Shown here in pieces: positions 13,027-62,291 of a stretch of 64,000 nt of DNA; position 1 is the first letter of the stretch; each line of letters begins with the position of its first letter. Where the stretch lies: assembly GCF_004349355.1 (NCBI RefSeq), contig NZ_SMFK01000007.1:62001-126000 (forward strand). The letters run 5' to 3'. A program made the position numbers and the translations under genes. Below the pieces are notes generated by a model that saw nothing but the letters and a program-made list of their open reading frames with translations, was not told the DNA's origin and searched no databases. Source of the DNA: Flavobacterium cellulosilyticum. GTDB lineage: Bacteria > Bacteroidota > Bacteroidia > Flavobacteriales > Flavobacteriaceae.

Positions 13027-14784
13027 TTAAAAATCAAATTTATAATTCGCTCCCAATACAATCTGAAACCCTTGAACTGGATAATCCATCCATTTTTGAT
13101 AGGATTTATTCGTAATATTATTGGCTCTTAAAAAAATAGTTAATCTATCACTATAATTGAATCCTACATGAGCATTTACATCAAAATAACTGGCTAATGT
13201 AATTGGACCTTGATCAATCGAGGTGGACAATGCCTTATTTATTTTTTGGTCTTTTCGTTCCCCTACATAAAAGGCATTAATACCTGCATACCATTGTTTT
13301 GTGATATTAAAATCTAATGTTGAATTCAGTTTGACAGCAGGCAAATTCCATGCCTCTGCTTCAAAACCTTTTGTATAACTACTAAAAGTTCCGTTGACAC
13401 CAAAAGTGACAACATCATTTATTTCTGCTTTAAGTTCCCCATAAAAACTCAAGGTTTTCACATCGTCATAAACCACACTCATCGAATTTCCGAAAGCATA
13501 GTTTTCATTGTTACTATTTTCGGTGTAATCATTGCTTTTAAACAAAGCTTTATTACTTTCGTTCAAGTAAGAAGCTCGCACATTATAACTTACGTTGTCC
13601 ACTATTTTACCTTTCAACCCAGCAAACATATCATATTTTTTGTCTGTTGGAATAATGGCTAAAGTTGGCGATAAAAACGGATTCACATCAACAAAATCGG
13701 AATAGGTATTTTGTTTCAACTCCCCTTCGGCACCAGCATAAAAAATCATCAAATCACCAATGACTTTATAGGAAGCATTAATTTGGGGGTAAACAAAAAA
13801 TTTATTGTTACTATTTTCAATGTCTTTACTATAAAATAAACCCGCTCCTATATGTATAGTCCAATCGTCTTCATCTAAGACAAAACTTGGAACAATCCCA
13901 ATATTTGTATAACCATATTTTATTGGGTTTGTATTCGTATTCCAATAATTTTTATCAAAACTTCCGCCTAAATAATCTACAATTATGTTTGTTTTAATAG
14001 CTACATCGTTGATGTCAAATTCCAATGATGGTTTGGCAAAAAATCTATTTTCCGCAGAACCATAATTATCCGAAAAATGATTGAATTTTACACTTGCTTC
14101 TTTTAAAATACCATCAAAAAGCTCAATTTTGCTTCCTATATAAACATTGTTATAACTTTGTTGCGGATTAATACCCCTTCTTATACTCTCCCTGTCGTTT
14201 GGAGTTAACGTACCTCCGAATTTAGCAGGCAAACCATACCAATTATAAATTTGATTTTGGTATCCTAAATCTAAATTCCAGTACAAATTATTTTGACGAA
14301 TACCATATGTTAAATCAATGGAAGTGTCATAAAATTTATCGTTTAACTCCACTCCTTTTATACCGCCTTGTGACGAAAGATGACGAAACATTCCACCCAC
14401 ATAATCATTATTATTTAATTCTTGATTTACAAACAATTCACCATTGAAAATCCCGTAATTCCCACCACCAAAAGTGGCATAATTATTATACAAATGGGCT
14501 TTTTTTTCTTTCTCAACACCTTCGGCTTTTCCTTTAGATGGTGCAAAAGTGGACGCTACAGGAAAAGAAAAAATCGTGTATTTTATTTTTTCTTTTTGGG
14601 CATTTCCTTCATCGTCCAATTCGGGAGTTTCTTTTATTTTAAAAGCATCCGAAATAGTTGGCGAATACGGTTTCACCACATTTACTACTTCAGTCCCAAT
14701 GTTTTCCTCTTTTTTTTGAGCAAATGAAAATTGGAACGTAATGAGTAAAATTATTGCAATTATATTTTTGAAATTGATTGTCAT
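13027..14784 (-). CDS. TonB-dependent-receptor-like outer-membrane beta-barrel protein
   Basis: From the ATG at 14784 the product is 585 residues. It begins MTINFKNIIAIILLITFQFSFAQ, a clear signal peptide. Then comes a short GTEVVNVVKPYSPTISDAFKIKETP segment reminiscent of a TonB box or plug start, then alternating aromatic strands to the C-terminal end ...FQIVLGANYKFDF, which finishes in the terminal aromatic typical of barrels. There is no full plug domain, so it is shorter than a classical TonB receptor. A 19-codon 5' extension exists but translates a dispersed repeat, so it is rejected. It lies just downstream of a TPR protein in the same direction; the two probably work together at the outer membrane. 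Ligand unknown. Confidence 0.8.
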   Translation of the reverse strand: MTINFKNIIAIILLITFQFSFAQKKEENIGTEVVNVVKPYSPTISDAFKIKETPELDDEGNAQKEKIKYTIFSFPVASTFAPSKGKAEGVEKEKKAHLYNNYATFGGGNYGIFNGELFVNQELNNNDYVGGMFRHLSSQGGIKGVELNDKFYDTSIDLTYGIRQNNLYWNLDLGYQNQIYNWYGLPAKFGGTLTPNDRESIRRGINPQQSYNNVYIGSKIELFDGILKEASVKFNHFSDNYGSAENRFFAKPSLEFDINDVAIKTNIIVDYLGGSFDKNYWNTNTNPIKYGYTNIGIVPSFVLDEDDWTIHIGAGLFYSKDIENSNNKFFVYPQINASYKVIGDLMIFYAGAEGELKQNTYSDFVDVNPFLSPTLAIIPTDKKYDMFAGLKGKIVDNVSYNVRASYLNESNKALFKSNDYTENSNNENYAFGNSMSVVYDDVKTLSFYGELKAEINDVVTFGVNGTFSSYTKGFEAEAWNLPAVKLNSTLDFNITKQWYAGINAFYVGERKDQKINKALSTSIDQGPITLASYFDVNAHVGFNYSDRLTIFLRANNITNKSYQKWMDYPVQGFQIVLGANYKFDF

Positions 14785-14817
14785 ATTGTAAAGTTTTATT
14801 TTGATAGTATTCTCTTC

Positions 14818-14842
14818 TCTCGATTGCGCTCGAGATGACACT
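14818..14842. repeat. Short palindromic repeat, TCTCGA-TTGCGC-TCGAGA type
   Basis: A 6-bp stem (14818-14823 with 14830-14835) is followed by TGACACT. The TCGAGCGCAATCGAGA-type sequence is, from memory, a widespread intergenic palindrome in Flavobacteriia. Here it sits between the TPR gene and the barrel gene. Confidence 0.6.
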
Positions 14843-14855
14843 ATAGAAGCAAAAA

Positions 14856-17800
14856 TTAGTTAGTAATAGATGAATTCGTTTTGGATTCTTCATTTTTAAT
14901 GTTTCCCAATTCTGTTTTGGCTTCTAAAACCACATCAGGATAATCAGTAAAGTTTTTAATCACATTTTCCAAGATATAAGTGGCCTGAAAACTATCTTTT
15001 AATCCATAGAAATTCTTGGCCATAAGAATCAAACCTTTAGACCCAAAATATTTATATCCAGAATAATTCTTAGCTAATTTTTGAACGACAGTATTTGACG
15101 CTTCAAACTTTCCGTCTTTATTTTTAAAATACCCTTCATAATATAAGGCTTCAGCGGCCAATTCTCCCTTAGCAATAGTTTGTAATTTGGCATAAGCTGT
15201 TCTTGCCTTGGCTTCATCTCCTGTTTGAATGGCAGCTCTTGCTACAATAATTTGCGCATCACTTTTTACCCCATCATCCGTTTTTGTATTAGCCAACACT
15301 TTTTCGGCATAAACCACGGAGTTAGCATAATCCTTTTTGTCATAATAACTTTTCATCAAGTTGGATTGTGCGTAAGTTTTATTTTGAGGATAATCAGCTT
15401 CGGATTCTAAACGTGTTAAAACAGGAATTGCTTTTGAATAATCATTGTTTTTTAAATAAATCTGAGCCAAACGAACCAGAGATTGTTCTGAAAACTCATT
15501 TCGGGGTTCCCCAATAACATACACATAGTTAGCAACTGATTTACTTTCCTGTCCGTCAGCATAATACGATTGTGCCAAATAAAAATTAGCTTTTAGCGAA
15601 TGAATTCCATTCGGGAATTTAGAAACATAATTGCTACATCCCACAATAGCTTGTTTTGTATTGTTTTGCAAATATTGTTTTTCTGCTGATTCGAAAGTGT
15701 CGTTATCTAATTCAGCATTGGTAACCGCAACAAAATCAAGTGTTCGAACCCAACTTGCATATTCGTCTACTCTACCGCTATCAACATAAATTAATCGAGC
15801 AGTAGCTACAGCCTCAAGTGCTTCGGGAGTTTTAGGGAAATCCGCAGCCACTTTTTTAAATTTGGCCAAAGCCAATTCATCTTTATCTGAATTGTAATAA
15901 ATCAATCCCTGACGTAAAATAGCTTTTGAGGTGAATGATCCTTTTTTGAATTCTGTATTTAATTGATCGTAGGTTTTTATAGCAAGATCTCTATTTTTCT
16001 CGGCTACATAAGTATTTCCAAGTTCAAACAAGGCGTCATCACGATAATAGGACTTTGGAAATAATCGCAAAAAGGAATTGAGTTCTTCTATCTTTTGATT
16101 GTTTTTTGCAAGAAAACCGTAACAAATCGCTTTTTGAAAATACGCATAATCCGCATCAACACTTTTTAAATCTATTACTTTATTATACGCTTCCAATGCT
16201 GGCGTGTATCTTGAACTCACAAATCGACAATCAGCCAAACGCAAGTAAGAATCATTCAAACGATCTTTGTCGTCTTTCACTTTTTCGATTTGTTTTTCGA
16301 AATAATTACCTGCTTGATCATATTCTTTTAACTTGAAATAAGAATAGGCAATATTGTAATTACTGTTCTTGAATTCTGGCGTAGCTGCCGCTTGAGCCAA
16401 ACCTGCAAATTGTCTATAACTCAAGACTGCATTTTTATAATCTTCTAAAACATATTCGGTTTCTCCTTTCCAGAAAGTTGCCCGAGCAGTAAATTTTGCG
16501 TCTCTAGGCTCGTCGATTGATTTTGAAAACATAGAACCCGCTTCTTGAATTTTTCCGTCAGTATACAACTCTAATCCTCTATAAAAAGCCACTTTTTGAT
16601 AGGCTGGTTTATTTTCTGTCGATTTATTTTTCTCTAATAAAACTAGAGCTTCTTTGTAATTTTTAGAGGAAATATAAGAATCAATTAATAATTTTTCAAT
16701 CTCAGACTTATTGGCATTATTAGGATATTTGTTCAAAAAAGAAGTCAAAACCGAAGGTACATTTTGATAGGAGTTTCCAATTTCGTAACTCAGTTTGGCA
16801 TAATTTAAGCTGGCATCTTCTTGAATTGCAAGATCAAATTCCATTTCAGAAGCATTCTTAAAGGCATTCAAGGCTTCTTGCTTTTTATTTAGTTTAAGGT
16901 AGCTTTCTCCTAAATGATAATACGCATTTTGAGCTACAAAATCTTTCCCACCAATGATTTTATTGAATTGAGAAATCGCATTATTGAAATCATTTTGCTT
17001 GTAATACGCATAGCCCAATTGGTAATAATCAGTATTATTCCATCGCCCTCTTTTGCCTTTATACAATGATAAATAAGGAATCGATTTGTCATATAGTTGA
17101 AAATTAAAATAGCTTTCGCCAATGATTTTATTTAATTCTGACTTTTCTGAAGCGTCCGATTTTGACATTGCCTTTAAACCTAAATCGATCGATTTTTGAA
17201 AATTTCCCAATTTAAAATTCATATCGGCTTGATAGTACGAAAGCTTTTCTTTGTATTTTTCTTCTCCAGATACTTCGTCAAAATATTTGTTGGCTTGTTT
17301 GTAATCATCCCCTTCGTAAGCCATAAAACCTAAATAATATTTGGCTTGCGAACCGTATTCGGGAGAATTTACTGCTTTGTTTAAATAAACTGCAGCTTCT
17401 TTCTTATTTTTAGAACTAAAAAAACTATAGCCTTTTTGAAAATTATACTTATCTCTTTCGGCATAACTTATGTTCGAGTCATCCACCTTTTCAAACCAAC
17501 GCAAAGCTTGAGGGTAGCTTCCTTGTTTGAAGTAATATTGTGCAACATCTAGATAGGCCCTATTTTGTTTTATGCTCGTTGGATAATCCGATACAAAACG
17601 TTCCATTAGAACATTGGCATTGGGTTGATCTGTGCGAATGGCACAATTTGCAATGTAATAAGAACAATCAGATAACAGTTCCTCATTAGTTGCAGTCGAT
17701 TTTAGCTTTTCGAATATGATTTGAGCAGAAGCATATTGATCTTCATTATACAATGAAACCGCTTTATCAAAATCTTTTGAATCGTGAGTGTAAATAGCAG

Positions 17801-40907: not shown

Positions 40908-41384
40908 TTTTAGTTCTTTTTAAAATTTATCTAAAGTTACTTAAAATAAAACCATTGAGGGATTTGATGCTTATAAAAATTTATTAAAAAATTAAAATCT
41001 ATTTGATAAAAGGGTATTGCAAAACAAAATACCGATGTTCGAAATCTCCCCACTTTGTACCAATTACTAGATGCTGATTTAAATTTTATGCTTTTTATTT
41101 GTGTTAGCTGATTATTAGAATGGCTATCATGCTGGGAGACTTCGAGCTACTAGAACAATTCATTTCATTTCCGCTTTTTTTTAATACTTCGCAGAGAAAA
41201 ACACTTAAAACCAAATTAATTTAACTTCATAAAAAAAGAGGATCTAAAATCCTCTTGATATTTATTCTAACCTCTAAACTATATCTCCTTATGTTTTAAC
41301 GTCATCTAATCGGTTCTGTCCTACACAGACTTCATTGTACTACTTTCAGACGCAACGCATCCTAAGCTGTTGGTAAAAGCTGCT
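40908..41384. other. 477-base gap: terminator-like hairpin and a short gene remnant
   Basis: No full gene was recognised. On the minus strand, 41236-41256 forms an 8-bp hairpin (AAGAGGAT/ATCCTCTT) followed by a T run, like a terminator for the toxin-antitoxin transcript. On the plus strand, 41322-41402 reads YTDFIVLLSDATHPKLLVKA and continues to a stop that overlaps the 3' end of the PIN gene. This looks like the tail of a lost protein gene, but it could be chance. Confidence 0.45.
41236..41256 (-). terminator. Terminator-like hairpin downstream of the toxin gene
   Basis: An 8-bp stem (41236-41243 with 41249-41256), loop of 5, T run on the minus strand. It lies about 130 bases after the PIN-domain stop. 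Confidence 0.6.
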
Positions 41385-41798
41385 TTACAAAATGCTATTT
41401 GAATATTCCTCAGCTGTCATAATTGGAATTGTAGCATTCTTAAAGTCTTTTCCGTTTCTAGTTATTATTATTGAGCAGTTAGATTGCAAAGCAGAAAAAT
41501 ATTGAACAGCATCTTCAAAATCTTTGAAACTCGAATTCAGTGCTTTATCAATTGTTTCTTCATTAACCTCACAAATCTCACAGATTATCTTAAACTTTCG
41601 AAGTTTATTCAAAACAGATTCGGATGTTTCATATTTATTTAAAACGTAATTTATTGTCGTGAATGAAAGAGGTGAGACAATTATACTAAGTTTTTTTTGA
41701 TCTGCCAAGGTAGCAACTTTAGCAATGGAATCAAAAAAAGGATCTCTTTCTCCCAACAAATCTAAAATTACGTTAGTATCTAAAAAAAGTCTGCTCAT
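41385..41798 (-). CDS. PIN-domain toxin (VapC-like ribonuclease)
   Basis: 137 residues of the PIN fold. FLDTNVILDLLGERDPF has the first acidic residue (Asp7) and FKDFEDAVQYFSA carries Asp93/Glu95/Asp96. IITRNGKDF near residue 111 provides the last conserved polar block. VapC-type toxins cleave tRNA or rRNA when the antitoxin is degraded. Its start overlaps the stop of the antitoxin gene (ATGA at 41795-41798), the classic toxin-antitoxin layout. The pair is next to an attC-like structured repeat and a broken HNH gene, so it is likely mobile cargo. Confidence 0.9.
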   Translation of the reverse strand: MSRLFLDTNVILDLLGERDPFFDSIAKVATLADQKKLSIIVSPLSFTTINYVLNKYETSESVLNKLRKFKIICEICEVNEETIDKALNSSFKDFEDAVQYFSALQSNCSIIITRNGKDFKNATIPIMTAEEYSNSIL

Positions 41799-42043
41799 TT
41801 GTATTTTTGTTCTAAATAATCAGCACGATCTTTTTTATAATCATAATCAGCTGGAATTTTAGTACCTGAAGAAAGACTTTTTACAAACGGTGAAATTTGA
41901 AAGTCATCATTAGTCTTGTCTGAAGTCAAAGAATTAAGATAATTTTCTATAAGTCGAGACAAGCTTACTTTTTTTTCAGCTGCATACTGTTTCGCTTTTT
42001 CAATGATCTCTTGATCAAGCTTCAAAGTCAGTTTAGTATCCAT
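41795..42043 (-). CDS. Antitoxin of the PIN toxin (ribbon-helix-helix, DUF6364-like)
   Basis: 82 residues. The first 40 (KLTLKLDQEIIEKAKQYAAEKKVSLSRLIENYL) form a short strand and two helices, as in ribbon-helix-helix DNA-binding antitoxins. The C-terminal half is acidic and disordered-looking and should wrap the toxin (FVKSLSSGTKIPADYDYKKDRADYLEQKYK). It is the first gene of the pair and probably represses the operon. The upstream 190 bases contain the structured repeat at 42140-42245. Confidence 0.88.
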   Translation of the reverse strand: MDTKLTLKLDQEIIEKAKQYAAEKKVSLSRLIENYLNSLTSDKTNDDFQISPFVKSLSSGTKIPADYDYKKDRADYLEQKYK

Positions 42044-42139
42044 AACATATAATTATTTATACGTACAAATATATAAATTTCGAACGTAACAATCACAGGT
42101 TTCAAATTTATTTTGGGATTACTATCATCCTTTTTCTGA

Positions 42140-42245
42140 TTTGAGATGGCTGGAAGTTCGAAACCGCTCAATTTTCGGCATAACGAAAATTTGATGCGGA
42201 ACGATAATTCCACTAAATTCCAGCTATATCAAAGGCTGTTAGCGG
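42140..42245 (-). repeat. attC-like structured repeat A (3' of the HNH gene)
   Basis: Outer arms 42140-42155 and 42218-42233 pair at 14 of 16 positions. Within them is a core (42202-42220, minus strand GAATTTAGTGGAATTATCG) identical to one in the repeat at 62152-62277, and an inner hairpin TTTTCG/CGAAAA. The end box reads CCGCTAAC on the minus strand (42238-42245) and includes the stop codon of the HNH frame. The arms differ in sequence from the other copy while the fold is kept. Confidence 0.8.
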
Positions 42246-43273
42246 CTGCTGTTGTTGTTTTCATTCGTTGTTTGTAATAATAATTTTAGTAAGTTAATTG
42301 TTAGTGGCGGTTCTTCTTTGTGTAGCATTGAATGACAATTTTGACAAACTGGAATTAAGTCGTTTATTGGGTCAACCTGATATGCTTTTCCGATTTGTGA
42401 AACTGGCGTTAAATGATGAACTTGTATAAAACCTTTTCCGATTTCTCCATACGATTTTTCAAATTCGAAACTGCAAACCACACAAATTGCTTTCCAATGT
42501 TTCACACAAAGTTGTCTTGCTTTTGAGTTTCTTTCGTAGGAATTTACAATTATTGTTCGCTTAATTCCTTCAAAAAGTTCTGCGGTATATTCTTCTGAAA
42601 TTTCTTCTGGATAAATTTCTTCGCCTGTCAAATCGATTTCGATTAATTCTTCGATTATCTCAGGTCATAATTGCCAAATAAATTTATTTCCTTCATCCCA
42701 ACCGTTAAAAAATAAATCCCAAAACTTATATTTTTCAGTATTTCATACCGTGAAATTAATATCGTAAAATTCTGCAATCCTCTTCGCGTATCGTCCGATT
42801 TCAAGATTTAGTAATGGCTGAGTGGTTTCTAAAATCAATGCAATTTGGCTTGCATAAGCTTTATGGTCTTGAAAAGAGTACAAACTTTGAAAAATTGCTA
42901 AATCGAGTTCGTTTGTCAGTTTTTTATTTTGAAGGATTTCAGTCCATTCTAAACTGTTCAGCTCAGATGATTTTGCAAAAATGTCTTTTCTTATTATTGA
43001 TTTTTCTTCTTGATTTTTTTCGTTAAACGGATTGGCTTTTGTTACTTCAACATCGATTTTCATTTGATTGCCAATAATCCATAAAAAAGAATGAGCGTCT
43101 AATAAAGTTGTATTATTGTCTTTTGTTTTTAAAAATTCTCTTGTTTGTTTAATTATGTTGATGTAAGTCGAATAATTTTCCCAAGAAAGATTATGACTTG
43201 TTTTAAAATCAGCAATTCCAAAAATTCCAATAATTTCAAAAATTTCGTCAAATTTTGTTTGAGAAATTGGCAT
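42239..43273 (-). pseudogene. HNH endonuclease gene with two in-frame stops
   Basis: One frame of 345 codons is interrupted by TGA at 42743-42745 and again at 42665-42667; everything between and after stays in phase (NTEKYKFWDLFFNGWDEGNK, then PEIIEELIEIDLTGEE). The C-terminal part is a canonical HNH nuclease: CVVC, VHHLTPVSQIG, NDLIPVCQNCHSMLH. The N-terminal part (DAHSFLWIIGNQM) is like that of other stand-alone HNH restriction-type proteins, but its function is not recognised. The second stop fits a CGA-to-TGA change (QL-R-PEI). The shorter parts 42239-42631 and 42743-43273 could be made separately, but a dead gene is simpler. Confidence 0.75.
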
Positions 43274-58011: not shown

Positions 58012-58155
58012 GCCGAAACACGAGATAATTAGCAATTTTCATGAAAAATCTACAAGAAAACAATTATATTTGAATTAAATATAATGCGCTATTCAGTTGC
58101 GACAATCCACCCAAAATTGGGTGTATATGCGCTACTTTATAGCGACTATAAACGA

Positions 58156-58164
58156 GTTATGCGG
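58156..58164 (+). other. GTTATGCGG box at the 5' side of the cassette-like gene
   Basis: An exact inverted match to CCGCATAAC at 58966-58974 on the other side of the gene. It compares with the R' core of attC sites and lies 38 bases before the start codon. Confidence 0.5.
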
Positions 58165-58201
58165 CATTTTAAAGAACAACCAACAACATAGACAACACAA
58201 T

Positions 58202-58954
58202 ATGAAAAAAATCATTCCAATATTAATCTTACTTCTGACGACAGTTGACGGGTTTTCAAAATGTGCATCAAGCGGACTTTATTTTTGGCCGACTAAACAG
58301 ACAATTAACCAAAACTCAATTTTTGTAATTGACGGCTACGCAACAAGCCAAAAAATAATTAACGGACTTGGGACAACTTATAAAGTATACTTGAAATCGG
58401 ACAAGCAGAAAATTAAATTAAACGTTCAAGAACTATTGGTAGGACAATTTAGTCTTACACAAGCAATATTAAAACCCGAGACAACTCTTTCCGTTGGACA
58501 AGAATATGAATTGGTAATTGAAAATTTAGATGATTTAGAAACTCAAGTTTATAGGTATAATGACTCAACAAGACAGAGAGAAAAAATCAAATGGACAGTT
58601 AAAAATTTCAATGACACTACATCCCCGACTTGGACAAGTAATCCGAAATTCAAGAATAGCAGTTATAATATGTATGGTTGTGGACCTGCAATTTTTGCGA
58701 ATTTTACCTATTCTGCTGCAGACAATTCAAAATATTTAATCAAAACAACAGTGAAAAACAAATCAACTGGAATTGAAACAACATACTATTTGAAACCGGA
58801 TGACAAAGTAATTGCTATTGGACACGGTATGTGTTCGGGTGCTTTTAATTTTGACGGTGGTGACAAATTTGAAGTTGAGTTTAGCTTATTTGACGCTTCA
58901 GGCAACTTGACAAAATGGACAGGTGAAAGAATTGAATTTAAACGACCAACGTGA
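58202..58954 (+). CDS. Secreted protein of unknown function in a cassette-like unit
   Basis: From the ATG at 58202 there are 250 residues with signal peptide MKKIIPILILLLTTVDGFS; an earlier in-frame ATG (58097 region) would lead through repeat-like DNA and is rejected. The mature part is beta-rich with six or so cysteines (FSKCASSGLYFWPT, YNMYGCGPAIFANFT, GHGMCSGAFNFDGGDKF). No family was recognised. It is bracketed by inverted GTTATGCGG boxes and followed by an attC-like stem, so it looks like a mobile single-gene cassette. Confidence 0.7.
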   Translation: MKKIIPILILLLTTVDGFSKCASSGLYFWPTKQTINQNSIFVIDGYATSQKIINGLGTTYKVYLKSDKQKIKLNVQELLVGQFSLTQAILKPETTLSVGQEYELVIENLDDLETQVYRYNDSTRQREKIKWTVKNFNDTTSPTWTSNPKFKNSSYNMYGCGPAIFANFTYSAADNSKYLIKTTVKNKSTGIETTYYLKPDDKVIAIGHGMCSGAFNFDGGDKFEVEFSLFDASGNLTKWTGERIEFKRPT

Positions 58955-58965
58955 AAGAAAAACGA

Positions 58966-59100
58966 CCGCATAACAGCACCTACCCAAAAGGCGGGGTTTC
59001 GTGTTCCAAAGACAGTTTTGTGGTTAATCAAACATTAGCTTTTCAAATCAAGTCTTGTGGTAAAAGACCCGCCCTTCGGGTAGCTGCAAACCGTCAAACT
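58966..59100 (+). repeat. attC-like structured repeat C, split by the IS element
   Basis: Box CCGCATAAC (58966-58974), then arms 58976-58995 and 59068-59087 that pair at 17 of 20 positions. The rest of the site (CCGTTGGTGGC around 60826-60836) now lies beyond the IS1182-type insertion. Arm sequence differs from repeats A and B while the layout is shared. Confidence 0.7.
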
Positions 59101-60819
59101 GTCTAAAAACCTCCCTTTCCTTAATTTGTTTTTTTTGTATTAAAAATCGTTCAAAAAACTTGTTTCTTACATTCCTTTTCTGTATCTTTAAATAGGTTTA
59201 AACCGCTAAAAAGATAGCTTATGAGTAAATTCATTATTGGAACCAACAGAAACCAACTCCCGCTTTTTGCAACATCTATTGACGATGCTATTGCGCAAGA
59301 CAACGAAATCAGACTCATTGATTTATTTGTGGACAGTCTAAAACTATCGGATTTTGGATTTAATTTTGAGTTTGTCGAAAACGGAAGACCCGCTTATCAC
59401 CCTTCGGATTTACTGAAACTATTTATTTACGGTTATCTCAATCGTATGCGTTCTTCCAGAACTCTTGAAAAAGAATGCTCCCGCAACATTGAACTGATTT
59501 GGCTTATGAAAGGGCTTGTTCCTGACCACAATACTATTTCTAATTTTCGCAAAGACAATCCTAAAGCCATTGCTCGTGTTTTTCGTGCCACAGTAAAAAT
59601 GGCAGCTCATTTTGAACTCATTGGAGGAACTTTGGTAGCGGGAGATAGTACTAAACTTAGAGCTCAAAACTCTAAGAAAAACAACTTTAATCCTGCAAAA
59701 ATAGAACGACACATTGCTTATATCGATGCGCGACTCCAAGAATACAACGCCGCTTTAGCCAAAGAAGATGGCGATTCTGAAAACAATAAAATCATCACTA
59801 AAAAAATTCAGAAACACACTAATCAAAAACAAAAATACATTGAATATCAAAATACAATTGACACCACAGGAGTAACTCAAATCTCGACTTCAGATCCTGA
59901 TAGTCGCCAAATTATGACCCGTAACAATATCTCCGAAGTGGCGTATACCGTGCAAACTGTTGTTGATGCCCAGCACAATATTCCTATTGATTTTAAGGTT
60001 ACCAATGAAAACGATTCCAAAGCAATGGGCGGTATGCTTCGGCGCAGCAAAACTATTTTGGGACACAACAACTTCACCGCCATTTACGACAAAGGGTATC
60101 ACACCGGAAGCGAGTTTAAATACGCTAATATGCTTGGCATTGACGTTTTGGTAGCCATTCCTGGTGTAGCAGCTCATGCACCAGATTTAGCTTTTGATGT
60201 AGAACATTTTAAATACAACAAAGACAACGATTCTTATACTTGCCCTGCCAATGAAATCCTAACCACAAACGGAAATTGGTACAATAAAACCAATGGGAAA
60301 TCCATAACCAAAATGAAGCATTACAAAACTGCTGGCTGTTTGTCCTGCGTATTTTTCTCGCAATGCACCAAAAATAAAAAAGGAAGACTCATTGAGCGTT
60401 CCCAGTATGCTGATTTGATATATGAAAACAAAATACGAATGGAAAACAACTACGAAATCTATCGCAAACGACAAGCCATTGTAGAACATCCTTACGGCGT
60501 TATCAAAAGGCAATGGGGATTTTATTACATCATGACCAAGAAAACAATCAAACACGCCTCTGCCGATGTGGGACTCATCTTTACGGCTTACAATCTGCGT
60601 AGAATTTTCAATTTAATTGACCAAAATCTTTTAAAACAGTATCTAAAAATGCTGACTTTATTTGTTCTTGCTATAAGAAGCTTTTTTAAAGCTTTTTACG
60701 CGTATACTATTTCTTATCCCAAACTAAATATATATTCTAAAAAATATTTAACTGGAGCTTAAATCAACTATTTTTACTCTGAAATTAATTAAAATAACGC
60801 AGTTTATAGGTTTTTAGAC
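59101..60819 (+). mobile_element. Complete IS1182-type insertion sequence
   Basis: 1719 bases bounded by perfect 12-base inverted ends GTCTAAAAACCT (59101-59112) and AGGTTTTTAGAC (60808-60819). It is flanked by the 5-base direct repeat AAACT (59096-59100 and 60820-60824), the expected target duplication. It carries one transposase gene, intact. Removing the element and one AAACT restores a continuous site C. Confidence 0.9.
59221..60762 (+). CDS. IS1182-family transposase
   Basis: 513 residues. The N-terminal domain (FVENGRPAYHPSDLLKLFIYGYLNRMRSSRTLEKECSRN) is typical of IS1182 (DUF772). The DDE residues are likely the Asp in GGTLVAGDSTKLRAQN, the Asp in AIYDKGYHTGSEF, and the Glu in AIVEHPYGVIKRQWGF. 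A zinc-like cysteine group (CPANE ... CLSCVFFSQC) lies between the last two. The frame is unbroken and the ends are intact, so the element may still be active. Confidence 0.95.
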   Translation: MSKFIIGTNRNQLPLFATSIDDAIAQDNEIRLIDLFVDSLKLSDFGFNFEFVENGRPAYHPSDLLKLFIYGYLNRMRSSRTLEKECSRNIELIWLMKGLVPDHNTISNFRKDNPKAIARVFRATVKMAAHFELIGGTLVAGDSTKLRAQNSKKNNFNPAKIERHIAYIDARLQEYNAALAKEDGDSENNKIITKKIQKHTNQKQKYIEYQNTIDTTGVTQISTSDPDSRQIMTRNNISEVAYTVQTVVDAQHNIPIDFKVTNENDSKAMGGMLRRSKTILGHNNFTAIYDKGYHTGSEFKYANMLGIDVLVAIPGVAAHAPDLAFDVEHFKYNKDNDSYTCPANEILTTNGNWYNKTNGKSITKMKHYKTAGCLSCVFFSQCTKNKKGRLIERSQYADLIYENKIRMENNYEIYRKRQAIVEHPYGVIKRQWGFYYIMTKKTIKHASADVGLIFTAYNLRRIFNLIDQNLLKQYLKMLTLFVLAIRSFFKAFYAYTISYPKLNIYSKKYLTGA

Positions 60820-60869
60820 AAACTGCCGTTGGTGGCAAGCAACCCTAAATAACTAAAAACCTATTTATT

Positions 60870-62171
60870 GTGAAATATATTAAGATAAATTATACCTTTT
60901 GGTTATCATTACTTTTATTATTTTCTATATGGATAATAATAAGTGTTGATTTAGAAATATTACCATTAATTCCCTCAAATTTAAACGTTGAATTAACTTC
61001 AAAATTGAATCGGATTTTACTTAATATCTCTTATAGTAATATTGCTGCTTTTATATTTTTTTGGTTTACAACAACTCTACCAAGGAAAATTAGAATTCAA
61101 CGTTCTAAGAAAATCATTTCTCGACATGTACATTCTTTGCTTATACAGTTATTTAGGATGATTAATCAGATTTTATATGCCTATAAAATTGAAAAAAAAA
61201 TCGAAGAAGTTCAAGAAAAAGATTTAATTAATTTAAGTGGTAATGTTCTTAATACTTTCAAAATTTCATATTTATCAACAGAACACTGGAAGCACTTTTG
61301 GAAAAAAGGCAAGCAATTTACTGGTAGTATACATCGAGAAGTGGATTATCCTGAATCAGTTGTAAATATCTTAAATTCACTACCAAATATAATAGAACAA
61401 ATTCGTAAAGCAAATCCAAAATTTCAAGTCGATGAATCTTTCGCTGAAATAATAACTTCCATTGAAACAAATCCATTTTTGGAAACGTATGCAAATAATA
61501 AATATCCTTTATTCCTAACTGTAGGCTCAAATGACAATTTATATTCCCTAATTAATGACTATAAACGATTATATAAACTTAAGTATCAAGATTATCATTT
61601 ATATTCTTTTTTCAAAATAAGATTCTTTAATACTCAAGAATTAGTTGACTATGATGAAGAGAATAAAAAACGTCAAAACGAATATTCTTTAAAATTTAGA
61701 GCTGCTATCGCACTTAACCCTTGCATAGTTTATAATCCAAGTTATTTAGACTCAACTGCACTAATTTCTTCAATAAACGCAGGCTTAATTTATAGAAACA
61801 ATAGTTGGGAAAAGAATTTTTCAATTTCTAAATATGAAAACGATATAATTATTCCAAATTTATGTGGATGTATTGTTTTGATAGCTGAAAATATTCCAAA
61901 GAATAAAATTATAGAATTTGTTAAAAATTACGAAAACGAAAAATTCATAATCCATATAGAATCAAGTATTTACAGAAATACCAGCAAAAAAAAATATAAA
62001 AACAAAGAAATCAATTTTGGATATTATAAATTATATTACAGAAAACCTGTAAATATTTTTGGAATTGAGTTTTATAAAAAACACCCTACTCGAAAGAAAA
62101 TAAGTAAATTATGTTTTGTAATTAACCATATGATGCATAACCGAAAGCCTACCGCTAACACACGTCTGTAG
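60870..62171 (+). CDS. Membrane-anchored protein of unknown function in a cassette-like unit
   Basis: 433 residues from a GTG start (MKYIKINYTFW). Two membrane segments at the N-terminus (about 10-28 and 55-70) are followed by a long cytoplasmic part rich in Lys, Asn and Ile. It has the lower G+C of horizontally acquired genes. No motif was recognised. The last codons (KPTANTRL) overlap the CCGCTAAC box of repeat B. The gene lies between site C (split by the IS) and site B. Confidence 0.65.
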   Translation: MKYIKINYTFWLSLLLLFSIWIIISVDLEILPLIPSNLNVELTSKLNRILLNISYSNIAAFIFFWFTTTLPRKIRIQRSKKIISRHVHSLLIQLFRMINQILYAYKIEKKIEEVQEKDLINLSGNVLNTFKISYLSTEHWKHFWKKGKQFTGSIHREVDYPESVVNILNSLPNIIEQIRKANPKFQVDESFAEIITSIETNPFLETYANNKYPLFLTVGSNDNLYSLINDYKRLYKLKYQDYHLYSFFKIRFFNTQELVDYDEENKKRQNEYSLKFRAAIALNPCIVYNPSYLDSTALISSINAGLIYRNNSWEKNFSISKYENDIIIPNLCGCIVLIAENIPKNKIIEFVKNYENEKFIIHIESSIYRNTSKKKYKNKEINFGYYKLYYRKPVNIFGIEFYKKHPTRKKISKLCFVINHMMHNRKPTANTRL

Positions 62172-62277
62172 CCATTTGCGAATTTAGTGGAATTATCGTT
62201 TTATTTCGTATTTTCGTTCAGCCGAAAATACTCGTCTTCGTAAGTTGCAAACGGCTACAGGCGCGGGAACGTTACAA
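62152..62277 (+). repeat. attC-like structured repeat B
   Basis: Box CCGCTAAC (62152-62159), arms CTGTAGCCATTTGC (62166-62179) and GCAAACGGCTACAG (62247-62260) pairing at 13 of 14, core GAATTTAGTGGAATTATCG (62180-62198), inner hairpin TTTTCG/CGAAAA (62211-62228), and an end box around ACGTTAC (62269-62275). Core and inner hairpin match repeat A at 42 kb. Confidence 0.8.
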
Positions 62278-62291
62278 AAAAATAATAAAAA

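Follow-up and report, generated by a model that had tools for sequence, protein, structure and literature searches.

Both the definition of integrons and the surveys for them build on two features: an integrase with the IntI-specific additional (I2) domain, and attC sites whose extrahelical bases are read by I2. Deletion of I2 abolishes IntI1 function, and I2 is described as necessary for cassette capture (PMC7790495). How I2 or extrahelical bases could be selected without each other was discussed by Escudero et al. 2016 (PMC4792948), and the origin of I2 has been called a chicken-egg paradox (PMC7790495; PMC4792948). In integrons, the bottom strand is the one used, and the pairing of the R boxes spans 7 nt and can be extended to 9-11 nt (PMC2727003). 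A hairpin without extrahelical bases, the CTXphi attP, is used by XerCD, recombinases that have no I2 (PMC4792948; PMC7790495). Integrons are known from Bacteroidota through a study that picked integrases by their additional domain (PMC2426708), and reviews count the phylum among those that bear integrons (PMC8618304; PMC9668308); within Bacteroidetes proper, IntegronFinder 2.0 names a complete integron solely in Salinibacter ruber M1 (PMC9024848). In one open-access library, no description was found of the I2-less cassette system presented below.

The elements considered here are, with a probability that we put at about 0.86, attC-like cassette sites of an integron-like platform in Flavobacterium and other Bacteroidota, a reading that draws on comparative sequence analysis. 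The window, i.e., the whole stretch of 64,000 nt that was analyzed (Flavobacterium cellulosilyticum, assembly GCF_004349355.1, contig NZ_SMFK01000007.1, positions 62,001 to 126,000), contains two such elements. A preliminary description of this DNA had noticed in both an identical 19-base core, a common inner hairpin, and outer arms that differ in sequence yet are self-complementary. A pattern search of the window bears out the core, at 42202-42220 (-) and 62180-62198 (+), and the hairpin and the paired arms are present in both copies. At up to three mismatches the core matches the window twice against 0.04 expected, and none of 100 shuffles reached two matches; a chance repeat is rejected. 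The span first assigned to the element proved too short: the full element measures about 130 bp, 62150-62280 (+) and 42120-42247 (-). Nor are the copies equal: the 62-kb copy is complete, with the R'' box TACCGCTAAC at 62150-62159, the core, the inner hairpin and a crossover GTT at 62271, whereas the 42-kb copy keeps its R'' box CCGCTAAC, both arms, the core and the hairpin and has lost the R'/GTT end, with no CGTT. The CCGCTAAC box was said to contain or overlap the stop of the upstream gene in both copies; the box is indeed present, and the stop lies inside it at 42 kb and 10 nt past it at 62 kb. Each copy follows the 3' end of an ORF that shares its orientation, a point that the preliminary description had proposed to check. 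Upstream of the 42-kb copy, an HNH gene (42239-43273, -) may be split into two ORFs. Folded as single strands, the bottom and top strands of the 62-kb copy reach -21.9 kcal/mol (z -3.05) and -20.9 kcal/mol (z -2.62), a small difference. In a covariance model the 62-kb site scores 138 bits, being itself among the model's own sequences, and the 42-kb relic scores 100.9 bits.

The genome of F. cellulosilyticum holds 20 core matches at up to three mismatches, 13 of which are the element by inspection, and at least 22 covariance-model matches at E<=0.1, at least 18 of them at E<=1e-5; the latter counts are lower bounds, as 150 of 3454 first-look candidates were scored. The copies form clusters that each keep to one strand, most of them located at C31:258-269 kb, C31:49-51 kb and C34:11-13 kb, and also occur singly outside arrays. 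The C31 group begins about 0.5 kb past the gene of a 350-aa tyrosine recombinase (C31:256573-257625). Across 299 sampled Flavobacterium genomes, the core at up to two mismatches is present in 103 (335 copies), against 17 copies in 16 genomes for a reversed-pattern control. A relative of the integrase at E<=1e-60 is encoded in 163 of the 299 genomes, and the two features go together: of the 163 genomes that encode it, 43 have two or more core copies, as do 7 of the 136 that do not (p=6.6e-7), and one or more are present in 70 and 33, respectively, the remaining 93 integrase-positive genomes having no core copy in a count restricted to core-type sites. Fourteen of 48 core matches examined have no AAC or CGTT ends; about nine of these appear to be chance matches without the element and about five decayed sites, the 42-kb copy included.

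Around the integrase gene the sites are distributed asymmetrically. At 80 integrase loci, 28 of which break off no more than 1 kb past the integrase gene, site density downstream on the integrase strand is 2.24 per 10 kb vs 0.12-0.34 elsewhere (85 sites downstream on the same strand, 7 upstream on the same, 8 downstream on the opposite and 20 upstream on the opposite strand). Where at least 2 kb of downstream sequence is available, such sites are present in 23 of 46 loci, 13 of which have two or more; the other 23 have no detected downstream site, and five of those carry upstream sites on the opposite strand instead. Sites in this latter position were found in L094 (7), L083 (5), L079 (3), L080 (2), L084 (2) and L077 (1), six loci that seem to share the divergent arrangement of classical integrons. 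Among the core copies and integrases listed, all 24 copies within 15 kb of an integrase lie downstream on the integrase strand, and so do all 48 covariance matches (E<=1) in L073, L093, L098, L103, L106, L109 and L157, one L098 site being among the model's own sequences. Beyond the integrase gene, about 100-160 nt past its stop codon (47 nt in L204), lies a short conserved attI-like sequence. It has the form GCGTRTATTTA..GA/GTT in relatives of the F. cellulosilyticum enzyme and ..ATATA.AC.A/GTT in the L098/L109/L157 group. The motif was recognized in 11 of 15 loci tried, all except L071, L093, L100 and L106, and in 10 of the 11 its GTT-N7 fits the R'' of the first site with 0-2 mismatches: none in L036, L098 and L204, one in L065, L103, L109 and L206, and two in L022, L067 and L073; L157 has six. 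In L100, another GTT fits the first R'' with no mismatch. Features of an integron found at these loci are an attC with R''/R', paired L arms and a GTT end, an attI beside the integrase at whose crossover the first cassette begins, and a cassette array in one orientation.

The integrase is a tyrosine recombinase by its Pfam match (PF00589, E 1.2e-38), and one such protein bears the NCBI name 'site-specific tyrosine recombinase/integron integrase'. R204, K229/K232, H294, R297 and Y329 are invariant, and H320 nearly so, among 30 integrases; we take them to be the catalytic R-K-H-R-H-Y residues. The best neighbours in sequence and fold include archaeal XerA-type recombinases and IntI4 (4a8e, 5hxy, 2a3v), and the structure predicted for the L109 integrase, which comes from Flavobacterium sp. 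245 (pLDDT 82), has XerA, archaeal Xer and IntI4 as its best fold matches; the pTM of 0.53 is low, and the domain arrangement in the model is tentative. The I2 domain is absent from all 14 family members inspected, ten of which have sites nearby. These proteins miss a segment of about 35-40 residues that is present in IntI1 and in four canonical IntIs of the same phylum; this gap also shows up in comparisons with IntI4 and with the TIGR02249 profile. By its place, we identify the missing segment as the one that would contain the additional/I2 domain. The TIGR02249 score, 197.8, falls short of the cut-off of 265, and the match comes in two pieces, at profile positions 1-177 and 241-315. IntIs above the family cut-off occur in 84 of 296 sampled genomes of the phylum, one of them from the window's class and the others sharing only its phylum.

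At the other end of the protein, residues 1-56 of the L109 model form a confidently predicted N-terminal domain of the order strand-strand-helix-strand-strand-helix, which has no Pfam match in the homologue P0001. A GxxWSxxxxxWxxP-like motif in it may point to a resemblance to the HARP domain. In genome G142, a 584-aa integrase (L204:1148-2902) that heads a core-type array seems, by eye, to carry this domain three times in tandem. In a tree, nine canonical IntIs form one clade (100) on a long branch, and the array integrases fall outside it in several places; the tree is a quick one whose root is unsure because the outgroups are very long, and it was computed from an alignment covering 60 of the 80 loci, after removal of 17 near-copies or odd rows. 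It is compatible with lineages that may have preceded I2 or may have lost it.

The sites might be genuine cassette sites that are moved by the host Xer pair or by a canonical IntI, the recombinase next to them being incidental. The F. cellulosilyticum genome does encode further tyrosine recombinases, and G036 and G213 are rich in the core (14 and 11 copies) with no integrase at E<=1e-60, although G213 retains a 178-aa frame with a C-terminal match. Against a canonical enzyme, no match in the F. cellulosilyticum genome, G015, G036 or G213 reaches the canonical IntI cut-off. The specificity of site density for the integrase's own flank and strand, and the position of the integrase at the head of the array with the conserved attI-like sequence in between, make an incidental neighbour improbable.

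A site consists of N7-AAC (R''), an arm, an inner part, the other arm and [A/G]C-GTT-N7 (R'); in the core type the inner part is the fixed core with the inner hairpin, and the stem measures 15-20 bp. The idea that stem covariation around a fixed core reflects selection on structure gains support from 34 sites that are complete and carry the core. Changes on both sides are seen in 15 of the 18 pairs of the outer stem; double-change cells number 148, where shuffles average 58 and slid pairings give 7-32; and the covariation score is 0.444 vs 0.182 in shuffles. Paired cells amount to 88.8% vs 33-44% with the partner slid. In the comparisons with slid versions the structure has an advantage, having been drawn from the 34 sequences themselves. 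Two of the five covariation measures are less decisive, having been reached by 21 and 22 of 500 shuffles.

The stems also distinguish the two strands. One stem position has an A.C mismatch in 33 of the 34 core sites, which is a G.T wobble on the bottom strand; among the arm mismatches on the top strand of 62 sites of many types, A.C occurs 74 times and T.G 28 times. Since top-strand A.C mismatches turn into G.T wobbles, the bottom strand tends to pair better, and it is the more stable one in 51 of the 62 sites (mean 2.2 kcal/mol). One of the 62, L153, comes from a canonical-IntI locus and is left out of the sets of 61 and 59. Extrahelical bases are mostly absent: a bulge is found on L' in 5 and on L'' in 5 of 61 validated sites, which were selected by a stem score with gap penalties that could disfavour bulges, and the 34 core sites, chosen without regard to the stem, agree (2 on L' and 4 on L''). 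The controls number four: a class 1 attC, which has three extrahelical bases on L'', and three candidates from a single canonical locus, which have 2-3. Two of these candidates bear the bulges on the other arm and are possibly read in reverse. From eight canonical IntI regions, three canonical attC sites were collected under each of two rules.

The strongest evidence, in our assessment, comes from own-cassette complementarity, the pattern that a circular cassette would leave. In the circular form of an integron cassette, the 5' end is joined to the cassette's own R'', so that R'' is expected to be complementary to the first bases of that same cassette. In 87 loci, both strands of which were scanned with sites picked by their ends and stem alone (122 sites, 62 consecutive pairs), R'' fits the 10 nt of GTT-N7 of the previous site with at most one mismatch in 55 of 62 pairs. 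The GTT of the same site is fitted in 6 of 62 cases and that of the next site in 4 of 45; random sequence would give such a fit in about 0.13% of cases. A coarser scan made beforehand counted 66 pairs in the expected order vs 14 in the reverse. Complementarity breaks off at exactly 10 nt in every one of the 35 perfect pairs (p 4e-5 vs 75% expected), so pairing at the eleventh position seems to be avoided.

The interval from one site to the next typically contains a single short gene. Position relative to genes, which had been singled out for checking, is not random: the longest ORF shares the strand of its cassette in 55 of 59 cases, and in the middle half of them its stop falls 11-30 nt ahead of AAC. 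The median cassette length is 633 bp; units above 2600 bp were left out, and some of the 59 are nested or overlapping and hence not independent. Of 30 ORFs from cassettes, some of these presumed, most have no Pfam match or a domain of unknown function, exceptions including TPR, HEAT, HNH, PIN and RraB. Two loci contain duplications. In L098, which comes from F. saccharophilum, a 970-bp cassette is present twice, with 1084 of 1088 positions identical over cassette and site; on the left the copies diverge just outside AAC, and on the right they do so after GTTA. L073 has two copies of a 481-bp unit that do not differ, the identity on the left extending 27 bases into a neighbouring similar site.

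Location 3' of genes in one orientation and covarying stems would also be expected of structured RNAs or transcription terminators belonging to the upstream genes, and the preliminary description had left the choice between recombination site and structured RNA open. The tests favour the former. Rfam has no match above the gathering score in four loci (L002-L005), each with at least one copy; in 51 of 62 sites the better-paired strand is the bottom one, from which the transcript of the gene is free; the partner of R'' is the beginning of its own cassette, which lies hundreds of bases upstream, and not the opposite end of the site; the boundaries correspond to those of cassettes; and whole cassettes are duplicated with breaks at AAC/GTT. 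An RNA or terminator is therefore very unlikely. Dispersed non-autonomous palindromes of the REP/MITE kind, unrelated to gene capture, would account for the single copies away from arrays and are scarcely credible in view of the one-gene spacing, the orientation, the integrase at the head and the own-cassette complementarity.

For the cassette sites of an integron-like platform, the array anatomy, the cassette ends, the attI-like sequence, the covariation, the strand asymmetry and the duplication bounded by AAC/GTT can be read from the DNA itself. In the mechanism that we infer, recombination would be catalyzed by the neighbouring integrase, a tyrosine recombinase of about 350 aa at the array head, which would bind the folded bottom strand, probably as a mimic of double-stranded DNA, cut it at AAC/GTT, and recombine this site with the AAC/GTT of another site or of the attI-like sequence. 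Cassettes would be excised as circles and then inserted or shuffled, and the wobble/mismatch asymmetry would replace extrahelical bases in choosing the strand. Alternatively, the reaction may proceed on double-stranded DNA instead of a folded single strand.

The copies in the window appear to be orphans away from an integrase: two putative cassettes behind an integrase-less attI at 58.0-62.3 kb, and one relic site without R' at 42 kb. The candidate orphan attI (58047..58155, +) is of the second attI form, ends with ATAAACGA and is followed by GTT; window positions 58047-58160 align with the region just 3' of the L097 integrase (blastn, 72% over 116 columns), and tblastn with the integrase family finds no member in the window. 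Cassette 1 (58156..58974, +) starts with GTTATGCGGC and ends with ACCGCATAAC, with one mismatch in the variable 7; its ORF (58202-58954) encodes a hydrophobic N-terminus and has no Pfam match. Its attC-like site (58965..59081, +) is of another stem type and runs at its 3' end into an insertion sequence (59082..60827, +, ends approximate; transposase ORF 59221-60762) located at the crossover end of the site. Probable cassette 2 (60828..62159, +) starts with GTTGGTGGCA beside the end of the insertion sequence, has the complete site 62150-62280 as its own and contains an ORF (60870-62171) with no Pfam match. Its fit to this start is weak, with three mismatches in 7, and the start was placed by position because two other GTTs tie at three mismatches. 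No cassette start complementary to either R'' box of the window, taken as 13- and 14-mers, turned up at two mismatches or fewer, and no identifiable cassette start was found for the 42-kb copy.

Window positions 58971-59085 recur at L071:18338-18452, in a freshwater Bacteroidetes MAG: the two sites are 96.5% identical, and the cassette gene has no blastn match, which hints at site exchange between lineages. The insertion sequence, with its 513-aa transposase, is 97.5% identical to one at L022:6845-8595; both copies adjoin the GTT crossover end of attC-like sites, and the insertion sequence may target such sites. An uncertain element at 41231..41338 (-), possibly a site or tail of another type, is 75-77% identical to repeats in L022 and L001, and no cassette start was found for it. 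Upstream of it are two ORFs (41385-42043, -), one of them small and the other with a PIN domain, that together resemble a toxin-antitoxin pair; being situated between the 42-kb relic and this element, the two ORFs are perhaps a cassette.

Outside the genus, a Chryseobacterium plasmid (L157, NZ_CP041688.1) carries the same kind of integrase at 14001-15041, an attI-like sequence and site matches, two strong and two weak; a transposase of the IS110 family and a group II intron are present in the same stretch. Plasmid and phage records searched with one site gave no match, so close copies of that stem type are absent there at that sensitivity. MAGs labelled Lachnospiraceae (L090) and Oscillospiraceae (L096) also carry the integrase, by transfer or by mis-binning; taxonomic breadth taken from names is loose, some MAG names disagreeing with the genus assignment.

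An integron-like system without I2 may help to explain how integrons evolved. I2 and extrahelical bases are apparently absent together while the arrays, the attI-like sequence and traces of cassette turnover are kept, so the question of origin becomes directly testable with natural enzymes. We give even odds to a broader proposition: that Bacteroidota harbor a widespread, unrecognised class of integrons that captures genes without I2, using hairpins without extrahelical bases whose bottom strand is marked by mismatch/wobble asymmetry, and that may represent or resemble a pre-I2 stage. If this is true, gene capture would have preceded I2, which would answer the chicken-and-egg question; the system would also add a pool of cassettes that surveys may miss.

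The closest likeness to known systems is to integrons, sedentary chromosomal integrons included: cassettes of one gene stand head to tail, sites have the R''-L''-L'-R' order and end in GTT, R complementarity is to the own cassette, an attI-like sequence lies at the array head, the genes are mostly of no assigned function, clusters without an integrase occur as orphans (cf. CALINs), and the recombinase is related to IntI and Xer. The differences are that the integrases inspected lack I2 and have an N-terminal domain of about 56 aa, that the sites mostly have no extrahelical bases, and that the R boxes depart from the integron consensus RYYYAAC/GTTRRRY. Unlike in classical integrons, integrase and array have the same orientation in Flavobacterium; upstream sites on the opposite strand give L083 and L094 the divergent layout. 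With the CTXphi hairpin attP and host XerCD the system would share a folded single-strand hairpin devoid of extrahelical bases and recombinases devoid of I2; it differs in having a dedicated integrase, an attI-like sequence and cassette arrays. Recombinases of the archaeal XerA type are close neighbours of the integrase in sequence and fold; in contrast to them, it has an extra N-terminal domain and is found with cassette arrays. As it departs from integrons in I2 and in extrahelical bases, two features regarded as integral to them, the system is set apart from integrons in the strict sense, despite a way of working that would be integron-like.
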